A stretch of 33,766 nt of DNA from Actinomycetota bacterium (GTDB taxonomy: Bacteria > Actinomycetota > Acidimicrobiia > Acidimicrobiales > Acidimicrobiaceae), in assembly GCA_004298555.1 (NCBI GenBank), contig SCQM01000028.1:1-33766 (forward strand). Reading direction: 5' to 3'. Of the stretch, positions 6,775-22,176 are shown piece by piece. Each line of letters starts with the position of its first letter. Position 1 is the first letter of the stretch. The position numbers and the translations under genes were made by a program. The notes beneath the pieces were generated by a model, which saw nothing but the letters and a program-made list of their open reading frames with translations, did not search any database and was not told the DNA's origin.

Positions 6775-7535
6775 ATCCGTTTTCTTACCTTCCGTAACTC
6801 ACTCATTAGCACTACTCCAGTTCGGTACCGAATCACCAACGGGACTTTCAGAATCAAACCCGATGCGAGGCTTCCATGCATCGACTGATATCAGCTTTGT
6901 TGCTGCCGTCTGTTAATGGCTCAAGGAACTTTTCAGTAACTCTATTCATTTTTGGTCGGTTTTCCAACCGCAATGAAAATATCTTCGCAGTTGGCATCGT
7001 ACAGTTTTCGGACGCAATCAAAGCGCGCGTTTGTGCAGTGTTTAATAGACCTCCGGTCAGCTGCACACGGGCAGATTCTGACGAAACCCGCGCCAAACCG
7101 GGCTGGTGGGACCGATTACGAATTACAACCATGCGGGCGTATTATTGGGTAAGGATGGTCGGGAATGGTCAAATAAATTATGCTGTGGTCTTATTGGCTA
7201 AATAGCATATCAAGCGAGTATTTTAGGCCTAGCAGAAAAACTGTCAAATGGGTTTATTTGCGACTTATGGCACATGCTACGCTTTGCCTGTCACAAGTAG
7301 TAACGTACGGGGGGCACAAAATGCTCAGTCTGAAACGCCGAAAATGTGGATTGCCGGTCTTTGTGTGGTTTTCATGCTCATTCTCCATGCGGAATGAGAC
7401 GAGGCATATGCCATTGAGTTTCGCGAATAGTCGTTCTAACCGTATACTCCTTGAACAAATTTGAATTATTTCGCAGGTATCCGTTGCGGCCCTAAGAATT
7501 GATTCCATCGGGCTGTGGTTTTAGAGGAGGTAAGG
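6775..7535. promoter_or_regulatory. Divergent ubiX / hcrC intergenic region
   Basis: This 760-base gap separates two divergent transcripts and is more AT-rich than its neighbours. Several open frames exist on both strands, but none has a ribosome site or a recognisable product. A TATACT box at 7443-7448 is a possible -10 for the hcr genes. Only a poor -35 (TTTCGC, 7420-7425) sits at 17-base spacing, so the promoter call is weak. A strong AGAGGAGG ribosome site lies at 7523-7530 for hcrC. The unusual length leaves room for regulator binding, but I see no clear operator. Confidence 0.35.
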
Positions 7536-8018
7536 ATGAGTGACATTGGCAGTCGTGAAATTCTGAAAATATCGGTTAACGGTCAGAATAAGGAGCTGTT
7601 GGTGAAGCCCTACGCGACACTTCTGGAAATACTCCGTGAAGATCTTCGTTTGACCGGAACGAAGCATGGCTGCGAAGCTGGTGAATGCGGCGCCTGCGTG
7701 GTGCTTATCGATGGAACTCCCCAGCTGAGTTGTCTGGTATTGCCAGGTCAGATTGAAGGTTCTGAGGTGACGACAATCGAAGGGGTTTCCGACGGAGGAA
7801 AATTGCATCCGGTTCAGCAGGCTTTTATGGATCATGGGGCATTGCAGTGCGGCTACTGCACTCCGGGAATGGTCTTGTCGTCAAAAGCTTTGCTCGACGC
7901 CAACCCCAGGGCTTCCGCGGAGGAGATCAAAGAGGCATTAGCCGGCAATCTTTGCCGCTGTACCGGTTACGTGAGCATCATTGAGGCGGTTGAGGCTGCC
8001 GGGAGGGCGATGGCATGA
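7536..8018 (+). CDS. hcrC: 4-hydroxybenzoyl-CoA reductase-type small subunit, two [2Fe-2S]
   Basis: This electron-transfer subunit of a xanthine-dehydrogenase-family molybdenum enzyme has 160 residues. The N-terminal ferredoxin fold binds the first [2Fe-2S] through Cys46, Cys51, Cys54 and Cys66 (CEAGECGAC and SCL). The C-terminal helical domain binds the second through Cys105, Cys108, Cys140 and Cys142 (CGYCTPG, LCRCTGY). ATG 7536 is chosen over an upstream start at 7515 because AGAGGAGG ends five bases before it. The stop overlaps the start of the large subunit (ATGA), so the two are translationally coupled. The fold alone does not fix the substrate. The neighbours, especially the FAD subunit with its extra cysteines, point to hydroxybenzoyl-CoA reduction. 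Confidence 0.88.
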   Translation: MSDIGSREILKISVNGQNKELLVKPYATLLEILREDLRLTGTKHGCEAGECGACVVLIDGTPQLSCLVLPGQIEGSEVTTIEGVSDGGKLHPVQQAFMDHGALQCGYCTPGMVLSSKALLDANPRASAEEIKEALAGNLCRCTGYVSIIEAVEAAGRAMA

Positions 8019-10387
8019 CTACTGTAGCAAATGATCCAAACGCCGACCTGAGAGTGATTGGCAAGTCTCTGCCCCGGGTTGATGCAGCTGGGAAACTGAT
8101 CGGCCTAACTGCGTATGCCGATGATATTGAGCTACCAGGCACTTTATACTGCAAACTCCTGCGCAGCCACCTGCCTCATGCCAGGGTGTTGTCAGTTGAC
8201 ACCAGTGCGGCAAGTGCAATCAAGGGTGTAATCGCAGTTATAACCGGCGAGGATATCCCGATCAAATACGGCATTATGCCCACCAGCCAGGATGAACATG
8301 CGCTGGAATACGAGAAAGTCCGCTTTGTGGGTGATCCGGTGGCCGCTGTCGCAGCTGTGGATGAAGAGACGGCACTTGCGGCCTGCCGGGCCATTGTGGT
8401 CGAGTATGAGCCACTTGAGACTGTCGAATCGATAGAGCATGCACTGCTGCCACCTTCCGACGAGCCGATCCACGATTATGCCGGACCTGGAAATGTTCAC
8501 AGAATTGGAGCATTGGAGTTTGGTGAAGTAGATGAAGGTTTTGCCAACTCAAGCTTTATCCGCGAAGACGTGTTCTTCTACGAGGGCAATACCCATCTGC
8601 CGATGGAGCAGCACAGCGCTACTGCGACATTTGTCGGTGATCAGCTGACATTGTGGTCCTCGACCCAAGATCCCCACTATGTCCACCGCGCACTGGCCAG
8701 GGTTTTTGATATGCCAATGGGTCATATTAGGGTTGTAGCGGCACCCCATGGCGGTGGCTTCGGCGGAAAGGCCGACCCTTTCTCACATGAAATGGCTGTC
8801 TGCAAACTCGCGATGGTAACTGGCCGTCCCGTCAAATGCACGCTTACCCGCGAAGAGGTGTTTTACGTTCACCGTGGAAGACATCCCGTATTGATGTGGG
8901 TCCGAACGGGCGTTTCCCAGGACGGCAAGATCCTTGCGATGCATTTCCGGACTGCGCTGGATGGCGGCGCCTACGGTTCGTATGGTCCGGCATCGATGCT
9001 CTACACCGGCGCGCTGCAGACGACGACTTACAATATTCCTGCATACCGCTTCGAAGGCGTGCGAGTATTCACGAACAAGGCGCCATGTGGACCCAAGCGC
9101 GGACACGGGACCCCTCAGCCCCGCTTTGCTCTCGAGCTTCATATGGACAAAATTGCTGAAGCCATCGGACTTGATCCGGTGGAACTTCGCAGGCGCAATT
9201 ACGTAAAGCCCTACACCCGGACTATCAATCATCTTCGCATCACGTCATGTGGTATCGAAGAGGTGACAGATCTCGTGGTCGAGGCCTCACGCTACCACGA
9301 ACGCAAAAAGAGGCTTGGACACGGTATGGGATTTGCCGTATCAAGCTACATGAGCGGGGCCGGATTGCCGATCTATTGGAACAAGCTGCCACACAGCGAG
9401 TGCATAATCCAGGTCAACCGGGGAGGGGTTACGCTTTACTGCGGCGCCACCGATATTGGCCAGGGTTCTGACACCGTGCTCGCCACAGTAGCTGCGGAGG
9501 AACTCGGGCTTTGGCCGACTGACATTCGAATCGTCAGCGGAGATACCGGTTTGACTCCCGTGGATTTGGGCTCCTACTCGTCGCGGGTAACATTCATGGC
9601 AGGCAATGCAGCGCTCCAGGCAGCACGTGAAATGCGGGAAATCCTGGTAAGTGCAGTTGCGGAAAAAATGGAATGTAGTCCCAAGGATGTCATGGTAGGG
9701 GACGGGAAGATCGGTGAGCTTTCCTTCGAGGAAGCAGCCAACCTGGCTCAAGAGCGTCATGGCGTTCTAACGGCTAGGGGCAGCTATACGCCTCCGCGAG
9801 AAATAGGTGGCAAATATAAGGCTGCTGGCGTGGGACCAAGCCCTGCCTACAGCTACTCGGCTGCGGTTGTCGATCTCGATGCTGATCCATACAGCGGCGA
9901 AATCCAGTTGAACAAGGTGTGGATAGCTCACGATATTGGGCGCTCGATAAATGAACTGGCCGTCAAGGGTCAGGTCGAAGGTGGCGTTTACATGGGCCTT
10001 TCAGAAGCCATGATGGAAGGGCAGCTTTATCGCCACGGCCTCCATAAGCAGCCGTCGATGCTCGACTACAAGTCATTCACTTTCTTCGAAATGCCCGAAG
10101 TTGAGACCTTTTTGGTGGAAACTGTCGACCTCGAGGGTCCCTATGGAGCTAAAGAAGCCGGACAGGGTCCGCTTCTTCCAGTCATTCCAGCAGTCGTCTC
10201 GGCTGTCCACGATGCCCTTGGAGTCTGGGTTGACGAGGTTCCAATTACACCGGACAAAGTCATGAGGGCTCTCGACGCCAAGGCCAAAGGCCGTGAAGGA
10301 CGCTACGGGCCGAAGAGCTTTCCGCAAATTTCCTATCCGCCTATTGTAAAGGTGCCTCCTTTCGATGCTTCGTCTACCGCGTTTTAG
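8015..10387 (+). CDS. hcrA: 4-hydroxybenzoyl-CoA reductase-type molybdopterin subunit
   Basis: This is the catalytic Mo subunit, which in 4-hydroxybenzoyl-CoA reductase removes the para hydroxyl of the CoA-activated ring to give benzoyl-CoA. The 790-residue length is normal. Visible landmarks are the substrate-domain segment FYEGNTHLPMEQH (188-200), the cofactor loop HGGGFGGKAD (245-254), KRGHGTPQPRFALE (361-374), which replaces the RGFG motif of xanthine dehydrogenases, GATDIGQGSDT (477-487) and the catalytic glutamate Glu714 in GAKEAGQG. FYEGNTHLPMEQH and the RGHGTP variant are, from memory, closer to HcrA than to xanthine or CO dehydrogenases. It overlaps hcrC by four bases and hcrB by 23. 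Other hydroxylases of this superfamily remain possible, but the HcrB-type partner makes them less likely. Confidence 0.85.
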   Translation: MTTVANDPNADLRVIGKSLPRVDAAGKLIGLTAYADDIELPGTLYCKLLRSHLPHARVLSVDTSAASAIKGVIAVITGEDIPIKYGIMPTSQDEHALEYEKVRFVGDPVAAVAAVDEETALAACRAIVVEYEPLETVESIEHALLPPSDEPIHDYAGPGNVHRIGALEFGEVDEGFANSSFIREDVFFYEGNTHLPMEQHSATATFVGDQLTLWSSTQDPHYVHRALARVFDMPMGHIRVVAAPHGGGFGGKADPFSHEMAVCKLAMVTGRPVKCTLTREEVFYVHRGRHPVLMWVRTGVSQDGKILAMHFRTALDGGAYGSYGPASMLYTGALQTTTYNIPAYRFEGVRVFTNKAPCGPKRGHGTPQPRFALELHMDKIAEAIGLDPVELRRRNYVKPYTRTINHLRITSCGIEEVTDLVVEASRYHERKKRLGHGMGFAVSSYMSGAGLPIYWNKLPHSECIIQVNRGGVTLYCGATDIGQGSDTVLATVAAEELGLWPTDIRIVSGDTGLTPVDLGSYSSRVTFMAGNAALQAAREMREILVSAVAEKMECSPKDVMVGDGKIGELSFEEAANLAQERHGVLTARGSYTPPREIGGKYKAAGVGPSPAYSYSAAVVDLDADPYSGEIQLNKVWIAHDIGRSINELAVKGQVEGGVYMGLSEAMMEGQLYRHGLHKQPSMLDYKSFTFFEMPEVETFLVETVDLEGPYGAKEAGQGPLLPVIPAVVSAVHDALGVWVDEVPITPDKVMRALDAKAKGREGRYGPKSFPQISYPPIVKVPPFDASSTAF

Positions 10388-11351
10388 TTATCTACGGCCT
10401 GAATCTGTGGCTGAAGCCGCCCAGATTCTTTCAGAGTATGGACCCCGGGCAACGGTTGTGGCCGGGGGAACAGATCTGCTTCCAAAGATGAAGAGGGGTC
10501 AGATCGAACCTGAGGTAGTGGTAGGAATCGGTCATCTGCCTGAGCTTCGCCAAATCCGTGCTACTGGTGACGGCGGTTTCGAGATCGGGGCCTGCGTGAC
10601 CCTGACGGAAGTGGTTGCCAGCTCCGAACTGCAGGCGGCGTACAGAGGCTACACGCGCGCTGCTGCATTAGTCTCATCGCCGGCGTTGCGCAATTCGGGA
10701 ACAATTGGCGGGAACCTGTGTGTCGATACACGCTGCAACTATTACGACGAGAGCTATGAGTGGCGCAAAGCTCTGGGGTTCTGCATGAAGAAGGATGGAA
10801 ACATTTGCAGGGTTGCCCCGGCAAGCGCTACCTGCAGGGCGATTGCGTCTTCTGACACCGCTCCTGCCGCAATTTCGATGAACGCAACAGTGCTTCTCGT
10901 CGGTCCCAAAGGGGAACGCGAGGTTCCAGTGGAATCCTTGTATCAAGACGACGGTCAGTTCTATCTGACTAAAGCCGCAGATGAGATTCTGGTCAGCCTG
11001 AAGATGCCGAGTCCGGGCGCCTGGAGATCGTCATATGTCAAAGTGCGCAACCGGGGAACCATAGATTTCCCACTTGTGGGCGCAGCTGCGGCACTTAAGA
11101 TGAATGGCTCTGTGGTCGAGGACTGCCGGATCGTAATTACTGCAGTTGGGCCCCAGCCGTTGGATGTCAGTCAGGCTGCCCGGCCGCTCCTTGGGAGACC
11201 AATTGATGATGCCATCCTTGAGGAGGTAGCTACCGAGGCTGCGAAGCCTGCCAGGCCTCTCGACAACGCCGACATTTCATATGTGTGGAGGAAGCGAATG
11301 ACACGTCGTGCAATCGAGCAGGCGATAAAGGAAGCTGCAGAGGTCGCATAG
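10365..11351 (+). CDS. hcrB: 4-hydroxybenzoyl-CoA reductase-type FAD / [4Fe-4S] subunit
   Basis: This FAD-binding medium subunit carries electrons between the iron-sulphur subunit and an external donor. It has the FAD loop VVAGGTDLLP (31-40) and TIGGNLC (113-119). Directly after comes an insertion with Cys124, Cys140, Cys148 and Cys157 (TRCNYY, GFCMKKDG, NICRVA, ATCRA) that ordinary CoxM/XDH FAD subunits lack. In 4-hydroxybenzoyl-CoA reductase this insertion holds an extra [4Fe-4S] cluster, which lets the enzyme run in the reductive direction with low-potential electrons. This is the strongest single argument for the hcr assignment. The ATG at 10365 lies inside the end of hcrA. A small perfect hairpin (AAAGG-TGCCT-CCTTT) sits just upstream, in the ribosome-binding area. 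Confidence 0.88.
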   Translation: MLRLPRFSYLRPESVAEAAQILSEYGPRATVVAGGTDLLPKMKRGQIEPEVVVGIGHLPELRQIRATGDGGFEIGACVTLTEVVASSELQAAYRGYTRAAALVSSPALRNSGTIGGNLCVDTRCNYYDESYEWRKALGFCMKKDGNICRVAPASATCRAIASSDTAPAAISMNATVLLVGPKGEREVPVESLYQDDGQFYLTKAADEILVSLKMPSPGAWRSSYVKVRNRGTIDFPLVGAAAALKMNGSVVEDCRIVITAVGPQPLDVSQAARPLLGRPIDDAILEEVATEAAKPARPLDNADISYVWRKRMTRRAIEQAIKEAAEVA

Positions 11352-11871: not shown

Positions 11872-13140
11872 ATGAGCGCGGACACTATTGCTCAAGCCAA
11901 TGTCAAATCCATACAGCTGGAGAAATTACAGGCTGGCGTGGAAGAGGTTCTGGCTTCAAATGCTTTTTATCAATCACGGCTTCACAAGGTCGACACATGG
12001 AGCGATTTTTTTGACCTGCCTTTTCTGACAAAGGCGGAACTCGTCGAAGATCAAAAGAACAACTTGCCGTTTGGCACCAATCTCACCTATCCTCTCGGTG
12101 ACTATGTCCGTTTGCATCAGACCTCGGGAAGTTCAGGAGGCAGGCCACTGCGATGGCTCGATACTGCCAGGTCATGGCTGTGGTGGACTGGTCTTTGGGC
12201 TAACCATGTTTACAAGGCTGCAGGGATTACAAGTGAAGACCGGATTTTCTTCGCTTTCAGCTTCGGCCCGTTTGTAGGATTTTGGTCTGCCTATGCCGGG
12301 GCAGAAAGACTGGGCGCCATGGTCATTCCAGGCGGTTCAATGAGTTCGGAGCAGCGCGTGCTGGCGATTCGCGATCTTGAGCCAACTGTTCTTTGCAGCA
12401 CCCCAACCTATGCGCTTCGCCTTGGCGAAGTAGCCAACGAGATGGGGATCGACCTTTCGAAATCTTCGATTCGCAAGACTCTTCATGCGGGAGAGCCAGG
12501 TGCGAGCATTCCTGCCACCAAGCGCTCTATAGAGACGATGTATGGCGCTCAGGTTTATGATCACACCGGGATGACCGAATTGGGTCCAACTGGATTCACC
12601 TGCTCGGCAGGAGATGGGGTCCATTTCATTGAGTCGGAATTCATATTTGAAGTGATTCCTTTGGGCAGTGATCCGGAAAGCAATATCACCCAATCTGAAG
12701 GCAAGGGCGAATTGGTTGTCACAAACCTTGGGCGTTTCTGCTCTCCGCTGATTCGTTATCGGACAGGCGATCTTGTTGACCTTTCGCGCGAACCGTGTTC
12801 CTGCGGAAGCCCATTTGTCAAGTCCCTTGGGGGAATACAGGGTCGGGTCGATGACATGTTTACCGTGAGGGGCATAAACCTATATCCATCGCAGGTTGAG
12901 GAAGTCTTGATGCGCTACTCGGAAATCGTGAACTTCCAGATAAGGCATCAGAAGGTTCGTCAGATGGACGAAGTTGCCCTCCTGATTGAGACCAGGGATG
13001 GTACTGAGGAGGTTGTCGAAAGGGTGGTGCTTGATCTTCGCCATTCGTTTGGGGTGCGCATCGATTGCAAATCTGTGCCAATTGGCTCTTTGCCACGCGA
13101 AGAAATGAAGGCAAAGCGGGTTGTCCACGTAGAGGGATAG
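11872..13140 (+). CDS. PaaK-type (phenylacetate/aryl) CoA ligase
   Basis: This AMP-forming ligase activates a carboxylic acid to its CoA thioester with ATP. At 422 residues it matches the compact PaaK branch rather than the roughly 520-residue benzoate/4-hydroxybenzoate ligases. Visible motifs are the P-loop TSGSSGGRPL (84-93), YDHTGMTELGP (229-239), the ATP-ribose motif RYRTGD (295-300), a CxC pair at Cys309/Cys311, the hinge GRVDDMF (324-330) and the C-terminal lysine Lys413 in REEMKAKRVV. It starts at ATG 11872 with only a weak upstream ribosome site. Lying downstream of hcrCAB on the same strand, it is the obvious candidate to make the aryl-CoA substrate of the reductase. Phenylacetate or another aryl acid is equally possible. 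Confidence 0.82.
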   Translation: MSADTIAQANVKSIQLEKLQAGVEEVLASNAFYQSRLHKVDTWSDFFDLPFLTKAELVEDQKNNLPFGTNLTYPLGDYVRLHQTSGSSGGRPLRWLDTARSWLWWTGLWANHVYKAAGITSEDRIFFAFSFGPFVGFWSAYAGAERLGAMVIPGGSMSSEQRVLAIRDLEPTVLCSTPTYALRLGEVANEMGIDLSKSSIRKTLHAGEPGASIPATKRSIETMYGAQVYDHTGMTELGPTGFTCSAGDGVHFIESEFIFEVIPLGSDPESNITQSEGKGELVVTNLGRFCSPLIRYRTGDLVDLSREPCSCGSPFVKSLGGIQGRVDDMFTVRGINLYPSQVEEVLMRYSEIVNFQIRHQKVRQMDEVALLIETRDGTEEVVERVVLDLRHSFGVRIDCKSVPIGSLPREEMKAKRVVHVEG

Positions 13141-16853: not shown

Positions 16854-17909
16854 TTAAACGAAACTTTCCTGGAACTTCATTAGTTCGTTTCTGCCTGGAC
16901 AGAGCTTCTCGAATGGCAGATTTATCAGCGGTTCTTGGGTTGTCCGGTTCAGATCATGGATGTCTGGCAATCCATGATCTACGAATAGCAAACCCGTGGG
17001 CACTTCCCCGTTTGCCTTGGCGCGGTTGACATAATTAATTGCAGCGTTTCGATCACGGGGATCGTAATTATCCGGCAAGGTTCTAAAGAGGATTTTCGAA
17101 CCGTCATGCATGGTTATGCTGACGCTGCTGTCTGCCGGCAGTTCCGCAGTGATGACCTCAGAAGGTTGGAGAAAAACCGAATCGATCTCATTTAGTTCGT
17201 GTTCTCTGATGTATTTGTAGCTCTTGGTGGAGCCCTGGTGATTGTTGAACTGTATGCAAGGAGAGATCACATCTATCAGGGCAAATCCGTGGTGCTCCAC
17301 TGCCGCTTTGAGAATGGGGATGAGCTGCTTCTTGTCGCCGGAAAAGCCTCGGGCTACGAACGAAGCCCCAAGGCTAAGGGCGAGTTCGACAGGGTCGATC
17401 GGAGGGACGTCATTTGGAATTCCCCGCTTGGTCGTGGATCCAATATCAGCAGTAGGTGAGAACTGGCCCTTTGTAAGGCCGTAGACTCCGTTGTTTTCGA
17501 TGATGTAGACCATGTTGACGTTCTTGCGGATAGCGTGGACGAGGTGTCCGGTTCCGATTGACAGTGAGTCGCCATCGCCGGAAATGCCAATGTGGATGTT
17601 AGCCCTGTTTGCCGCATTGGCACCCGTAACTATTGGTGGCATACGCCCATGGACGGAGTTGAAGCCGTGGGCTCCTGCTACAAAATAGGTTGGCGTTTTA
17701 GATGAACATCCGATGCCGCTCAGCTTGGCTATCAACTCCGGAGGGGTATCCAACTCGAAAAAGGTCTGGACGATCGCCGCCGTAATCGAATCATGTCCGC
17801 ATCCGGCACAAAGCGTGGACATCGATCCTTCGTAGTCTCTAACGGTCAGTCCTAAGGAGTTGGTGGCATGCGGGGCGAGTGGGATCAGTGGTTTGCGTAT
17901 CGATGGCAT
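16854..17909 (-). CDS. korB: 2-oxoacid:ferredoxin oxidoreductase beta subunit (2-oxoglutarate type)
   Basis: This is the ThDP-binding subunit of an enzyme that oxidatively decarboxylates a 2-oxoacid, probably 2-oxoglutarate, to acyl-CoA while reducing ferredoxin. It has 351 residues. The [4Fe-4S] ligands are likely Cys34, Cys37 (CAGCGH), Cys68 (GIGCSSK) and Cys218 (ISPCIQFNN). The ThDP motif starts GDGDSLSIG (111-119) and closes with NNGVYGLTKGQFSPT (139-153). The size and pattern match actinobacterial KorB. ATG 17909 lies two bases after the korA stop, with AAGGA just inside korA, so translation is coupled. Pyruvate as substrate cannot be excluded without alignment. Confidence 0.88.
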   Translation of the reverse strand: MPSIRKPLIPLAPHATNSLGLTVRDYEGSMSTLCAGCGHDSITAAIVQTFFELDTPPELIAKLSGIGCSSKTPTYFVAGAHGFNSVHGRMPPIVTGANAANRANIHIGISGDGDSLSIGTGHLVHAIRKNVNMVYIIENNGVYGLTKGQFSPTADIGSTTKRGIPNDVPPIDPVELALSLGASFVARGFSGDKKQLIPILKAAVEHHGFALIDVISPCIQFNNHQGSTKSYKYIREHELNEIDSVFLQPSEVITAELPADSSVSITMHDGSKILFRTLPDNYDPRDRNAAINYVNRAKANGEVPTGLLFVDHGLPDIHDLNRTTQEPLINLPFEKLCPGRNELMKFQESFV

Positions 17910-17911
17910 TT

Positions 17912-19798
17912 TCAGTCCTTTAACTGGTTCAGAAGTCCGTCAACAACGAGATCTGCGCTAATCGGGAATCCCCCATAAGACAGTACCGAGCGAAGTTGAT
18001 CTGGAGATGATCCGGTTTCTAGAATCAGAAGTGAACGCAGTTGAGCGTCCCTGTTTTGCTCTACAACCACGGTCATCTCATGAGAGTCGATGAAATTTTT
18101 CACTTCATCAGGGAACGGGAAGCCGCAGACCCGCATGTAATCTAGCGGCAGGCCGTCTTGGTCCAGATTGTAAATGGCTTCTTTGACGGCCATTTCGCAG
18201 CTTCCAAGGGTTATAACCCCAAATCTGGCTCCGGGCCTTGTCTCAACTATCGGCTTCGGGATGTATTTAGCTGATGCCTGGTGTTTTTTGACCAGCCTGT
18301 CAACAACCTGAATATAGGAGTCTGAGCTTTCCGTGTAGCCGCCAAACCGGTCGTGCCCGGATCCGCGGTTGAAATAAGCGCCTTTTGTTGAGATGCCAGG
18401 CAGTGTGCGAGGAGTTACGAAGTCGGCGTCCTCATCCGAGTAGCGGTAAAATTTTGGAATTGCTTCCAAGTCTTCAGCGCTCAGGACTCTTCCCCGGTCC
18501 CAGTTGTAATTGTCATCCCAGTCAAACTTGGACGCCACCCAGTCGTTCATACCAATGTCAAGGTCCGACAGGACAATTACCGGAGTTTGGAAGTGCTCGG
18601 CAAGATCGAAAGCCTTGGCTGTGAAACGGAAGCATTCTTCCGGGTCAGCCGGGAAAAGCAATATATGCTTGGTGTCTCCATGAGATGCGTATGCGCATTC
18701 CATAATGTCTGCCTGTTGCACTCTGGTTGGCATGCCGGTGGAGGGGCCGGTACGTTGAACGTCAATGATCACAGCTGGAATCTCGGTGTAGTAGGCAAGG
18801 CCCAAAATTTCGTTCATCAATGAAATCCCAGGTCCCGACGTAGAGGTGAATGCCCTTGCGCCAGCCCAGGAAGCCCCGACAACCATTCCAAGAGCTGCCA
18901 GCTCATCCTCTGCCTGGAGAACTATGTAGTTGTTCCTAACCTCGGTGGTTCCGTCTTCCAAAGTGATGGTTTCACGGCGATAGCGCGAGCAGAGCTTCGT
19001 GAAGTTTTCTGCGACCGAGGTAGCAGGCGTGATCGGATACCAAGCCGCCACCGTGGCGCCTGCATAAATGCATCCGAGCGCCGTGGCGGTATTCCCGTCG
19101 ATCAGTATCTTGTCCTTATTGGCGTCGATATGCTCCAAGCGTATTGGCAATGGGCAGCTGAAGTTTTCCATTGCATAGTTGTAACCTAGCTGCAGTGCCC
19201 GGTGATTTGAATTTCGCAGCCTCTCATTGCTGGAGTAGGTCTCGTCAAGCAGCTCCGCCAGCACGTTTGTATCCAGTGCAATCGCTGCAGCCACGGCACC
19301 CGCATAGCCTATGTTCCGCATTAGGATCCGCTCACGTGACTCAGAGAACTCCTCGGCAAACAGGGTCGAAAATGGTATGCCAAGGAAGTTGATGTCATCC
19401 CGCAACAGCTTGGTGGGAATAAACCAGCTCGAGTCATAGATGAGGTACCCGCCAGGCCGCACCGAGGCAATATCGGTCTCATAAGTCTGAGTGTTCATGG
19501 CAACGACAAGATCGAAAGCTGTTGCGCGGGAGGTAAATCCGGAGCCATTGACCCTGATTTCATACCAGGTTGGCAGTCCCTGGATATTTGACGGGAAAAG
19601 GTTCTTCCCCGACACCGGAACACCCATGCGGAAGATGGCCTTGAGCAGCAGGTTATTGGCACTTGCTGAGCCGGTCCCGTTCACCGTCGCAAAGCGTATG
19701 GCGAAATCGTTTACCTTATTGGAAAGTTTGTGAGAGCCATTTTTGGACTTCGTCGGATCGGGATTGTCCAACCCTTTTTGATCGATTTGTTGATTCAT
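17912..19798 (-). CDS. korA: 2-oxoacid:ferredoxin oxidoreductase, fused gamma-alpha subunit
   Basis: This is the partner of KorB. The 628-residue chain fuses the gamma domain (about 32-215, starting with NGTGSASANN) to the alpha domain (from about 245), which has AWYPITPATSV, TSTSGPGISLMNE and QRTGPSTGMPTRVQQAD, followed by the C-terminal transketolase-like domain (GVITLGSCEMAVKEA). The fused form is the usual arrangement for actinobacterial KorA. The start ATG 19798 overlaps the korC stop by one base (TAATG). An upstream start at 19891 would run 94 bases into korC and adds no conserved sequence. The gene order korC-korA-korB on one strand, with near-zero spacing, indicates one operon and one complex. 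Confidence 0.88.
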   Translation of the reverse strand: MNQQIDQKGLDNPDPTKSKNGSHKLSNKVNDFAIRFATVNGTGSASANNLLLKAIFRMGVPVSGKNLFPSNIQGLPTWYEIRVNGSGFTSRATAFDLVVAMNTQTYETDIASVRPGGYLIYDSSWFIPTKLLRDDINFLGIPFSTLFAEEFSESRERILMRNIGYAGAVAAAIALDTNVLAELLDETYSSNERLRNSNHRALQLGYNYAMENFSCPLPIRLEHIDANKDKILIDGNTATALGCIYAGATVAAWYPITPATSVAENFTKLCSRYRRETITLEDGTTEVRNNYIVLQAEDELAALGMVVGASWAGARAFTSTSGPGISLMNEILGLAYYTEIPAVIIDVQRTGPSTGMPTRVQQADIMECAYASHGDTKHILLFPADPEECFRFTAKAFDLAEHFQTPVIVLSDLDIGMNDWVASKFDWDDNYNWDRGRVLSAEDLEAIPKFYRYSDEDADFVTPRTLPGISTKGAYFNRGSGHDRFGGYTESSDSYIQVVDRLVKKHQASAKYIPKPIVETRPGARFGVITLGSCEMAVKEAIYNLDQDGLPLDYMRVCGFPFPDEVKNFIDSHEMTVVVEQNRDAQLRSLLILETGSSPDQLRSVLSYGGFPISADLVVDGLLNQLKD

Positions 19799-21582
19799 TA
19801 GTGGCCTTTGTGGGTAGAAGTTCCGGCATAGCTCAGCTGGAGGACAAACTTTTCCATGTTCCAGGCTGCCGTCGGACAGCGTTCGGCGCAAAGGCCACAG
19901 TGAACACAGATGTTTTCGTCCTTAACCATGATTCTTCCAGTTTGAGCCAGCGTTGAAGAAACGTACAGGAGTTTGTCGAGGGCTTCAGCAGGGGCTGTGA
20001 GGTGCATTCGCAGGTCCAGTTCGTCCTCACGGTTTTCCGTGATTGTCAAGCACTGAACAGGACAGACATCGATGCATGCGTCGCACTCAATGCACAGCTG
20101 GGCACGAAATACCGGCTCGACATCGCAGTTCAGGCAGCGCTCGACTTCCCGGGCCGTCTGCTCGGGGCTGAATCCAAGCTCGACTTCGAGACTGAGATCT
20201 TCGAATCGCTTCGTCAGATCCACGTGGGTCATCTGCTGGCGTGGTGATGGGTTGAAGTCGTTGTGGTAACTCCATTCTGTCAAGCCCATCTTCTGATTTA
20301 TCAGATTCATTCCGACCGGTGGGCGGTCGCTAACCGGTATGCCTTGGCATTGGTTATCTATGGAGATAGCTGCCTCGTGGCCGTGGGCCACTGCCCAAAT
20401 GATGTTCTTGGGTCCAAATGCTGCGTCACCACCGAAATAGATTTGGGGGTGAGTTGACTGCATCGTCACTTCATCCACAACTGGCATGTCCCATTTGCCG
20501 AACTCAATTCCGATATCCCGTTCAATCCACGTAAAGGCATTTTCCTGGCCAATGGCAAGGATGACGTCATCGCAGGGGATTATTACGGTATCGAGCACCT
20601 GGGAACGCGTGGCGCTTTCATCCCATTTGACAATGTCGAACTCCATACCAACGAGCTGCCCGTCGTCGATAACGAAGCGCTTTGGGGCATGGTTGACGAT
20701 AATCTCGATGCCTTCCTCTTCGGCGTCTTCCAGCTCCCAGGGCGAAGCCTTGAAGTATTCGCGGGGGCGGCGGGCCATAATCTTAACATCTTTGCCGCCG
20801 AGGCGCCTAGCAGTCCGGCAACAGTCCATAGCTGTGTTTCCAACACCTATGACAAGGACGCGCTTCCCGATTTCGGTCACGTGGCCAAAGGCGACTGACT
20901 GGAGCCAGTCGATTCCTATGTGGATGCGGCTTTCGCCCCCATCCCTTCGGCCCTCGAGTTCCAGGTCTTTTCCTCTGGGAGCTCCGCTCCCGACGAATAT
21001 CGAATCGAAGCCATTGTCGAGGAGCTGTTTCATGCTGGCGATCTCAGTGCCATAGTGCATCTGGGCGCCCATGGAGACTATTGCTTCAATTTCCGAATCG
21101 AGAACTTCTTCAGGGAGGCGGAAAGACGGGATGTTGGTGCGCATCAAGCCACCCGGTTTGAGTGCGGTTTCAAATATGTGCACTTCATAGCCCAGAGGCA
21201 GCAGATCATTCGCAACTGTCAACGATGCGGGACCGGCACCTACGCATGCCACCTTTTTGCCGTTGGCTGTTTCGGCGCCTTTGGGCAGTCGCTGGGTAAT
21301 GTCACCTTTCAAGTCCGCAGCTACGCGCTTGAGCCTGCAGATTGCCACCGGTGTGCCATCGACACGCTCTCGACGGCAGGCCGGCTCGCACGGACGATCG
21401 CATGTACGGCCAAGAATCCCTGGAAATACGTTTGAAGTCCGATTGACCATATAAGCATCGTCATATCGACCTTGTGCGATGAGTCGAATGTATTCAGGTA
21501 CGTTGGTGTGAGCGGGACAAGCCCACTGGCAGTCAACCACTCTGTGGAAAAAATTCGGATTATTGATATCGGTTGGTTTCAC
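19798..21582 (-). CDS. korC: FAD/NAD(P)H oxidoreductase with multiple [4Fe-4S], KorC-type gamma subunit
   Basis: This GltD-like flavoprotein is predicted to move electrons between ferredoxin or KorAB and NAD(P)H. Numbered from GTG 21582 (594 residues), it has an N-terminal cysteine domain as in dihydropyrimidine dehydrogenase/GltD (Cys18, Cys22, Cys61, Cys65, Cys69; ACPAHTNVPEY). It also has the FAD loop GAGPAS (115-120), a second nucleotide loop GVGNTAMDCC (246-255), YFGGDAAFG (382-390), and at the C-terminus CLNC (483-486) and two [4Fe-4S] motifs, CIECDACIDVCP (497-508) and CVHCGLCAERCP (559-570). GTG 21582 is preferred because GGAGG lies nine bases upstream; TTG 21588 leaves only three. 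Placement ahead of korAB matches the three-subunit 2-oxoglutarate:NADP+ oxidoreductase described in Azoarcus evansii. Confidence 0.85.
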   Translation of the reverse strand: MKPTDINNPNFFHRVVDCQWACPAHTNVPEYIRLIAQGRYDDAYMVNRTSNVFPGILGRTCDRPCEPACRRERVDGTPVAICRLKRVAADLKGDITQRLPKGAETANGKKVACVGAGPASLTVANDLLPLGYEVHIFETALKPGGLMRTNIPSFRLPEEVLDSEIEAIVSMGAQMHYGTEIASMKQLLDNGFDSIFVGSGAPRGKDLELEGRRDGGESRIHIGIDWLQSVAFGHVTEIGKRVLVIGVGNTAMDCCRTARRLGGKDVKIMARRPREYFKASPWELEDAEEEGIEIIVNHAPKRFVIDDGQLVGMEFDIVKWDESATRSQVLDTVIIPCDDVILAIGQENAFTWIERDIGIEFGKWDMPVVDEVTMQSTHPQIYFGGDAAFGPKNIIWAVAHGHEAAISIDNQCQGIPVSDRPPVGMNLINQKMGLTEWSYHNDFNPSPRQQMTHVDLTKRFEDLSLEVELGFSPEQTAREVERCLNCDVEPVFRAQLCIECDACIDVCPVQCLTITENREDELDLRMHLTAPAEALDKLLYVSSTLAQTGRIMVKDENICVHCGLCAERCPTAAWNMEKFVLQLSYAGTSTHKGH

Positions 21583-22176
21583 GCCCAACTGCCTCCAAAG
21601 ATAGATCGGCTAGCAGGCACTAAACATTGGACTTCCAATGCGTCGCGAGTGGTTCCGAACTATCTGTTCTCTCTAAATGAGCCATTTGCTGACTAGGTGG
21701 TTTAAGATAACCGTTCTACCTAAAACCTACCTTTTTAATTTTACATTCTGCGGGTTTATAGTAAAAATCTGTCCTATAAAGTCCTTGTCTTTGCTCCAGT
21801 TGTTCAGTGGTGAGTAAATCGTTAGGTTAATAATTCCAGCATGTTGAGGGTATGTCAAAAGCCGTACGGGCGCGGCGAATTCCGTCTTGGATATCCAAGG
21901 TCTTAGGAGACCGCGGTTCATGATTCTGGCAGCAGATTTCTTCAACCCGGGGTTTTGGTTCCGTGAGCAGGCCAATAATACTTGGCCGTGGATGGGGAGC
22001 GATGCACAGCGACTTTGGTATGCATCAACTGCTCAAAGACGGCTCACATATGATCATGGCCAACTTGGAGTGCCCCCGCCCTAACTGCCAGGGGAGTCTT
22101 TCTGCGGCAGTGCTAAAGAAAACCCGATGTTATGATTCTGTAGTTAGCACTACGGTTGCGACTGGTGGTGAGGTTA
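21583..22176. promoter_or_regulatory. Divergent korC / marR control region
   Basis: This gap of nearly 600 bases separates two divergent genes and is clearly AT-rich around 21700-21790, unlike the genes beside it. On the minus strand a TATCTT box (about 21708-21713) could serve korC as a -10. No strong -35 is seen. Near the MarR gene, GTAGT-TAGC-ACTAC (22140-22153) is a perfect five-base inverted repeat, a possible autoregulatory site. Frames within the gap (such as 21887-22084 and 21963-22229 plus, 21727-21975 minus) look random. Confidence 0.35.

Follow-up and report, generated by a model that had tools for sequence, protein, structure and literature searches.

The korC-korA-korB operon of an Acidimicrobiaceae genome probably encodes a general 2-oxoacid oxidoreductase rather than a dedicated electron donor for aromatic ring reduction

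The korC-korA-korB (korCAB) operon of this actinobacterial genome probably encodes an autonomous and widespread soluble three-subunit 2-oxoacid (probably 2-oxoglutarate):NAD(P)+/ferredoxin oxidoreductase that is not tied to aromatic degradation, i.e. a general metabolic enzyme and not a dedicated donor for ring reduction. It is a 2-oxoacid:ferredoxin oxidoreductase (OFOR) with an NfnB-like NAD(P) subunit, a kind of enzyme that is already known. The window analysed here, 33,766 nucleotides in length, is an entire contig of a metagenome-assembled genome (MAG; 2.5 Mb, 92% complete). The original prediction had taken the operon for the electron source of a nearby hydroxybenzoyl-CoA reductase (HCR) and of a ring reductase, an aromatic interpretation that was, as a whole, partly supported by the present analysis.

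All three genes are located on the minus strand. The first, korC (19798..21582; 594 aa, GTG start), encodes an Fe-S flavoprotein subunit with an NfnB/GltD-like FAD-NAD(P) core, and a ribosome-binding site, GGAGG, can be read in the sequence of the same strand at 21592..21596, 9 nt before the GTG at 21582. It is followed by korA (17912..19798; 628 aa), which encodes the OFOR gamma-alpha fusion subunit (TIGR03710, PF01558 and PF01855), and by korB (16854..17909; 351 aa), which encodes the OFOR beta subunit with thiamine diphosphate (TPP) and one [4Fe-4S] cluster (PF02775). The predicted coupling of the three genes was confirmed, with the last base of the korC stop codon (19798) serving as the first base of the korA ATG, a one-base overlap, and a two-base gap between the end of korA at 17912 and the start of korB at 17909. 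The assignment of korC is based on orthologues of 55-88% identity within the same operon, and on its N-terminal cysteine domain and C-terminal 2[4Fe-4S] ferredoxin domain. Related loci drawn from many phyla show korA after korC without exception (94 of 94) and korB next in all 68 testable cases, a constancy of gene order which indicates a real operon rather than a chance arrangement. A scan of the locus for promoters and terminators returned no more sites than shuffled sequence, and no gene family common to most korCAB neighbourhoods was found that could serve as a hint to function. An apparent KorC-KorA fusion in one related locus (a 1201-aa frame in L064) was rejected as an artefact, as the frame contains an X residue and, just after it, a shifted reading within KorC.

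As predicted, the enzyme is an OFOR of the KorAB type whose third subunit resembles GltD. KorA passed the curated cut-off of TIGR03710 (551.3 bits against 482.75) and contains both POR gamma and POR_N domains, and its YPITP motif, Arg349, Thr354 and Ser70 are invariant in 81 sequences. KorB contains a TPP domain (PF02775, TPP_enzyme_C) and the four cysteine ligands of the proximal [4Fe-4S] cluster (Cys34, 37, 68 and 218), which align with cysteines conserved in StOFOR and MmOGOR and which, along with Lys71 and Leu145, are invariant in 74 sequences; against TIGR02177 it scored 214 bits, below the curated cut-off of 261.9, as a divergent relative. Most of the length of both subunits can be aligned with MmOGOR (6n2n) and StOFOR1/2 (5b48, 5b46), including KorB with 6n2n_B and 5b48_B, and the TPP and cluster residues are kept, whereas these enzymes have no flavoprotein subunit corresponding to KorC.

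The residues lining the substrate pocket allow 2-oxoglutarate as the substrate of KorAB, short of proof, and judged from sequence it is the most likely one. Four of five StOFOR pocket positions are kept in KorAB (the equivalents of Ser41a, Thr349a, Lys49b and Leu123b, the last two being invariant), and, besides the pocket Thr, KorA keeps the carboxylate-binding Arg. The fifth position, Asp468a, which is required for 2-oxoglutarate use in StOFOR (PMC5020499), is Ser480 in KorA, and this counts against the 2-oxoglutarate part of the preferred explanation. The serine, the otherwise close match to the pocket of dual-specificity StOFOR and the membership of KorA in TIGR03710, a generic 2-oxoacid family, would all fit a KorAB that uses pyruvate or several 2-oxoacids rather than 2-oxoglutarate. 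That alternative is nevertheless considered somewhat unlikely, as the equivalent of Lys49b, the exchange of which for Ile in StOFOR1 abolishes 2-oxoglutarate use, is invariant, and the acidic Asp468a is also missing in the 2-oxoglutarate-specific KorAB of H. thermophilus (PMC5020499); in MmOGOR (6n2n), a Leu is aligned at this position. An NADH-dependent phenylglyoxylate dehydrogenase (PadEFGHI) was rejected as a candidate, with the PadG model NF045764 at 49 bits against a cut-off of 700.

KorC has the predicted composition of a GltD-like FAD protein with an N-terminal cysteine domain and two C-terminal [4Fe-4S] motifs, for which the Pfam domains Fer4_20 (residues 17-91), Pyr_redox_2 (110-401) and Fer4_7 dicluster (497-573) were found. 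Six cysteines of the N-terminal domain are invariant (18, 22, 61, 65, 69 and 82), as are Cys483/486/511 of the C-terminal domain in addition to its two CxxCxxCxxxC motifs. This invariant cysteine set is unusual, and His13 in the N-terminal domain is near-invariant. KorC scored below the cut-offs of the curated NfnB/GltD families of NCBIfam, both for the best match, PRK12771 (381.6 bits, cut-off 516), and for TIGR01316 and others. In the AlphaFold model, the core is confident and resembles those of NfnB, GltD and DPD, with Nfn and Stn as the best structural matches; the Fe-S domains are mostly at pLDDT < 50, and the geometry of the clusters is therefore not readable from the model. The domain layout is shared with DsrL, an NAD(P)H:acceptor oxidoreductase composed of an N-terminal Fe-S domain, an FAD-NAD(P) core, a linker and a C-terminal 2[4Fe-4S] domain (PMC7596348), from which KorC differs in the extra invariant Cys82, in the linkage to korAB instead of dsrAB, and in H13, which appears to occupy the position aligning with one of the NfnB distal-cluster ligands. 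The NAD(P) motif of KorC, ARRPR at 270-274 (R271 in 40 of 40 sequences, R or K at position 272 in 38 of 40), shares two of three letters with YRR, the motif by which NADP(H) use is recognised in DsrL-2 (PMC7596348), a likeness that would favour NADP(H) as the coenzyme.

Under the proposed mechanism, KorAB would bind thiamine diphosphate and decarboxylate a 2-oxoacid, most likely 2-oxoglutarate, with CoA. Electrons would then leave the KorB [4Fe-4S] cluster singly, enter KorC at its ferredoxin-like domain and reach the FAD, where NADP+ would be reduced, with reduced ferredoxin as a possible side product. OFORs are reversible in principle, and this reversibility, together with the NADP(H)-type motif of KorC, could be consistent with an enzyme running in reverse, using NADPH for ferredoxin reduction or for the carboxylation of succinyl-CoA. 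Such a direction is very unlikely, however, given that the transfer from NADPH to ferredoxin is uphill and that KorC has a single FAD-NAD(P) core, resembling the NfnB-type flavoprotein only, within an operon from which a partner flavin subunit is absent; the same composition makes bifurcation unlikely. The korCAB enzyme differs in this respect from NfnB/NfnABC, StnABC and AadN, having KorAB in place of an NfnA-type partner flavin subunit, and AadN, an Nfn homologue, is the likely donor of benzoyl-CoA reductase (BCR) in R. palustris (PMC9973337).

Phylogenetically, KorC of the window falls within an Actinomycetota clade, together with those of two other members of its genus (G292 and G311); among relatives that bear names, the nearest are Acidimicrobiaceae MAGs. 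Another genome of the order (G346, locus L106) and an Actinomycetes MAG (L023) have identical KorC proteins. The 2-oxoglutarate:NADP+ oxidoreductase KorABC of Azoarcus (Aromatoleum) evansii reportedly consists of two OFOR subunits and a flavoprotein third subunit and is NADP-linked, and the window resembles it in encoding a GltD-like FAD-NAD(P) subunit with korAB. The sequence comparison with Aromatoleum concerns the operon on plasmid 2 of A. aromaticum EbN1 only, which is 51-56% identical, and the window's korCAB family, unlike A. evansii KorABC, shows no aromatic association. Gene order on EbN1 plasmid 2 and on Variovorax plasmids is identical to that of the window, at identities of 55.5-58.7% for KorC, 51% for KorA and 53-54% for KorB, but the KorC proteins of these plasmids form a separate branch of the tree and have RSG as the coenzyme motif where the window has RRPR. 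Further, a CBS-domain gene adjoins korCAB in both EbN1 and Variovorax (annotated at L005:4389-4853 in EbN1, and read from an open frame at about 14,700-15,163 of L006 in Variovorax), while there is none beside the korCAB genes of the window.

The aromatic genes named in the original prediction were found. The 4-hydroxybenzoyl-CoA-reductase-like genes hcrC-hcrA-hcrB are located at 7515..11351 on the plus strand, as neighbours outside the korCAB operon at a distance of 5.5 kb from korB, with TIGR03194 and TIGR03195 as the top matches of the two larger subunits and TIGR03193 among the near-equal best matches of the small subunit, all below the curated cut-offs. A PaaK-like CoA ligase (11872..13140, plus strand; TIGR02155 at 205 bits, below cut-off; 83-86% identical in G292 and G311) and a gene for a UbiD-type decarboxylase are also present in the window. 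The ring reductase was right in kind and is located away from the window, in a class I BCR-type operon, oah-bcrC-bcrB-bcrA-bcrD, on contig C156 (L019 9282-14556). The best NCBIfam matches of this operon are mostly BCR subunits, below curated cut-offs, and those of BcrA and BcrD are to the wider activase family. The operon is divergent in this actinobacterial MAG, and a hemerythrin-like gene follows the BCR genes, as one is also present near BCR in several relatives. A second bcrB adjoins a PaaK-like ligase on contig C115 (L020:3025-4377), and a profile search of the genome returned no class II BCR (BamB, PF01314).

The claim that HCR and the ring reductase draw on korCAB as their dedicated electron source follows the reported precedent of A. 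evansii KorABC, and is favoured by the presence of the BCR operon in the same genome and by the proximity of HCR within a block conserved across three species of the genus. In Thauera, BCR receives electrons from OFORs of the KorAB type, and some R. palustris strains carry the genes of such enzymes in their benzoate cluster (PMC9973337), which adds to the case. Synteny in the block, at 54-88% identity, extends from the ligase to korCAB and covers aquaporin, SnoaL and cupin genes, and the distance between korCAB and HCR stays at about 10 kb or less in each of the three genus members, an observation that counts against independence from aromatic metabolism. However, within the order sample this synteny is confined to the window's genus (the window genome itself, G292 and G311), it takes in unrelated genes (aquaporin, SnoaL, methyltransferase), and it lasts in G292, where BCR was not found.

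At least 579 confirmed KorC relatives came from a scan that covered 85,000 species genomes, and the best 80 of them are spread over many phyla. BcrB was present in 3 of 51 KorC-bearing genomes (the window genome, L053 and L064), a set made up of close relatives of the window KorC rather than a random draw, and mostly of MAGs. Across the 298 genomes of the window's order, KorC was found in 10, BcrB in 11 and an HcrA-like protein in 14. With the window genome left out and relatedness ignored, KorC coincided with BCR in one of nine genomes (expected 0.3, p=0.27) and with HCR in two (p=0.054), both of the window's genus, while HCR and BCR were tightly coupled in the order (10/10, p=2e-16, relatedness likewise ignored). 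Two genomes from other genera of the family (G224 and G249) contain korCAB in the absence of HCR and BCR. Both at the order level and across phyla, KorC showed no association with ring-reduction genes, the outcome set to refute the original prediction, and the wide, aromatic-independent distribution of korCAB makes a general metabolic role likelier than one dedicated to ring reduction. With the link to HCR restricted to a single genus, and with another pair of OFORs tracking HCR and BCR, a dedicated role of korCAB, as originally predicted, is unlikely. In this organism, korCAB may still add to the electron pool feeding HCR and BCR, and a local contribution to ring reduction may exist in the window's genus, where HCR is nearby.

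The dedicated low-potential source for HCR and BCR is more likely to be OorABG/IorAB than korCAB. The window genome holds these two further OFORs, OorABG on contig C188 and IorA on contig C144. Ten further genomes of the order have an OorA at >=50% identity; all 10 contain HCR, nine BCR and none KorC, and in eight of the 10 OorA and HCR share a contig, at a spacing of about 6-25 kb judged from the listed coordinates. The gene order in G110 is FdxA-LeuC-LeuD-HcrCAB-LeuA-IorA-IorB-OorA-OorB-OorG-CaiB-ECH-SDR-thiolase-PrpF-PaaK-BcrDABC, pieces of which also occur in G081, G316 and others, and a module of this type, except for HCR, is present in the window genome. The location of OorABG/IorAB within the HCR/BCR cluster of relatives is a further argument against korCAB as the dedicated donor. 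The full alternative, in which OorABG and/or IorAB would supply HCR and BCR via an FdxA-type ferredoxin and korCAB would be unrelated to the pathway, has about an even chance of being correct. Against it, HCR is no longer part of that cluster in the window genome, and FdxA was not found in its assembly, where only weak matches inside larger proteins were returned and contig C144 ends near the expected place. Further, G311 contains both BCR and HCR, yet its OorA is only 46% identical and occurs in a different context. In G292, which has no OorA match, korCAB is the sole one of these OFORs found beside HCR, which counts against the preferred reading of korCAB as independent of aromatic degradation. 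The IorAB/OorABG/LeuACD set may also serve a carbon pathway instead of electron supply.

A module of LeuA-like synthase, LeuC/LeuD-like, IorAB, OorABG, CaiB, ECH, thiolase and PrpF genes is conserved in HCR/BCR clusters (L140, L147 and L148; the window genome's own copies in L144 and L145), and it looks like a 2-oxoacid pathway. In G311, a second OorABG-type OFOR (L146:6579-9390 and on) adjoins a GltD-like gene 30% identical to KorC, a possible sign that an OFOR and a flavoprotein became paired independently. In G136, G089 and G093 (L131, L132 and L137), BoxB and BoxC, of aerobic benzoyl-CoA epoxidation, are encoded next to BCR (in L132 with TIGR03225 and TIGR03222 over cut-off), placing both benzoyl-CoA routes in one cluster, and bcrBC together with boxBC have been reported in related UBA5794 actinobacteria (PMC12008989).

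The E1 component of 2-oxoglutarate dehydrogenase was over cut-off in 44 of the 51 KorC-bearing genomes, including the window genome (1020 bits in a 1279-aa frame), which rules out korCAB as a replacement for that dehydrogenase. The same distribution leaves unexplained why a second enzyme that oxidises 2-oxoglutarate would be needed, and to that extent counts against the preferred explanation of korCAB as a general 2-oxoacid oxidoreductase. Tentatively, NADP-linked 2-oxoacid oxidoreductases of the korCAB type could form a large and so far uncharacterised family with an unusual six-cysteine N-terminal Fe-S domain, acting as a redox valve or low-oxygen TCA-cycle bypass beside the classical 2-oxoglutarate dehydrogenase. 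The phyla in which the korCAB family occurs include Actinomycetota, Gemmatimonadota, Pseudomonadota, Acidobacteriota and others. If this reading is true, 2-oxoacid oxidation of this form, described chiefly in anaerobes and in a single degrader of aromatics, would be common across many phyla beside the usual dehydrogenase, and korC would be a misleading annotation marker of aromatic ring reduction. For ring reduction itself, the comparison yields a testable donor in these actinobacterial genomes, namely OorABG/IorAB with FdxA.
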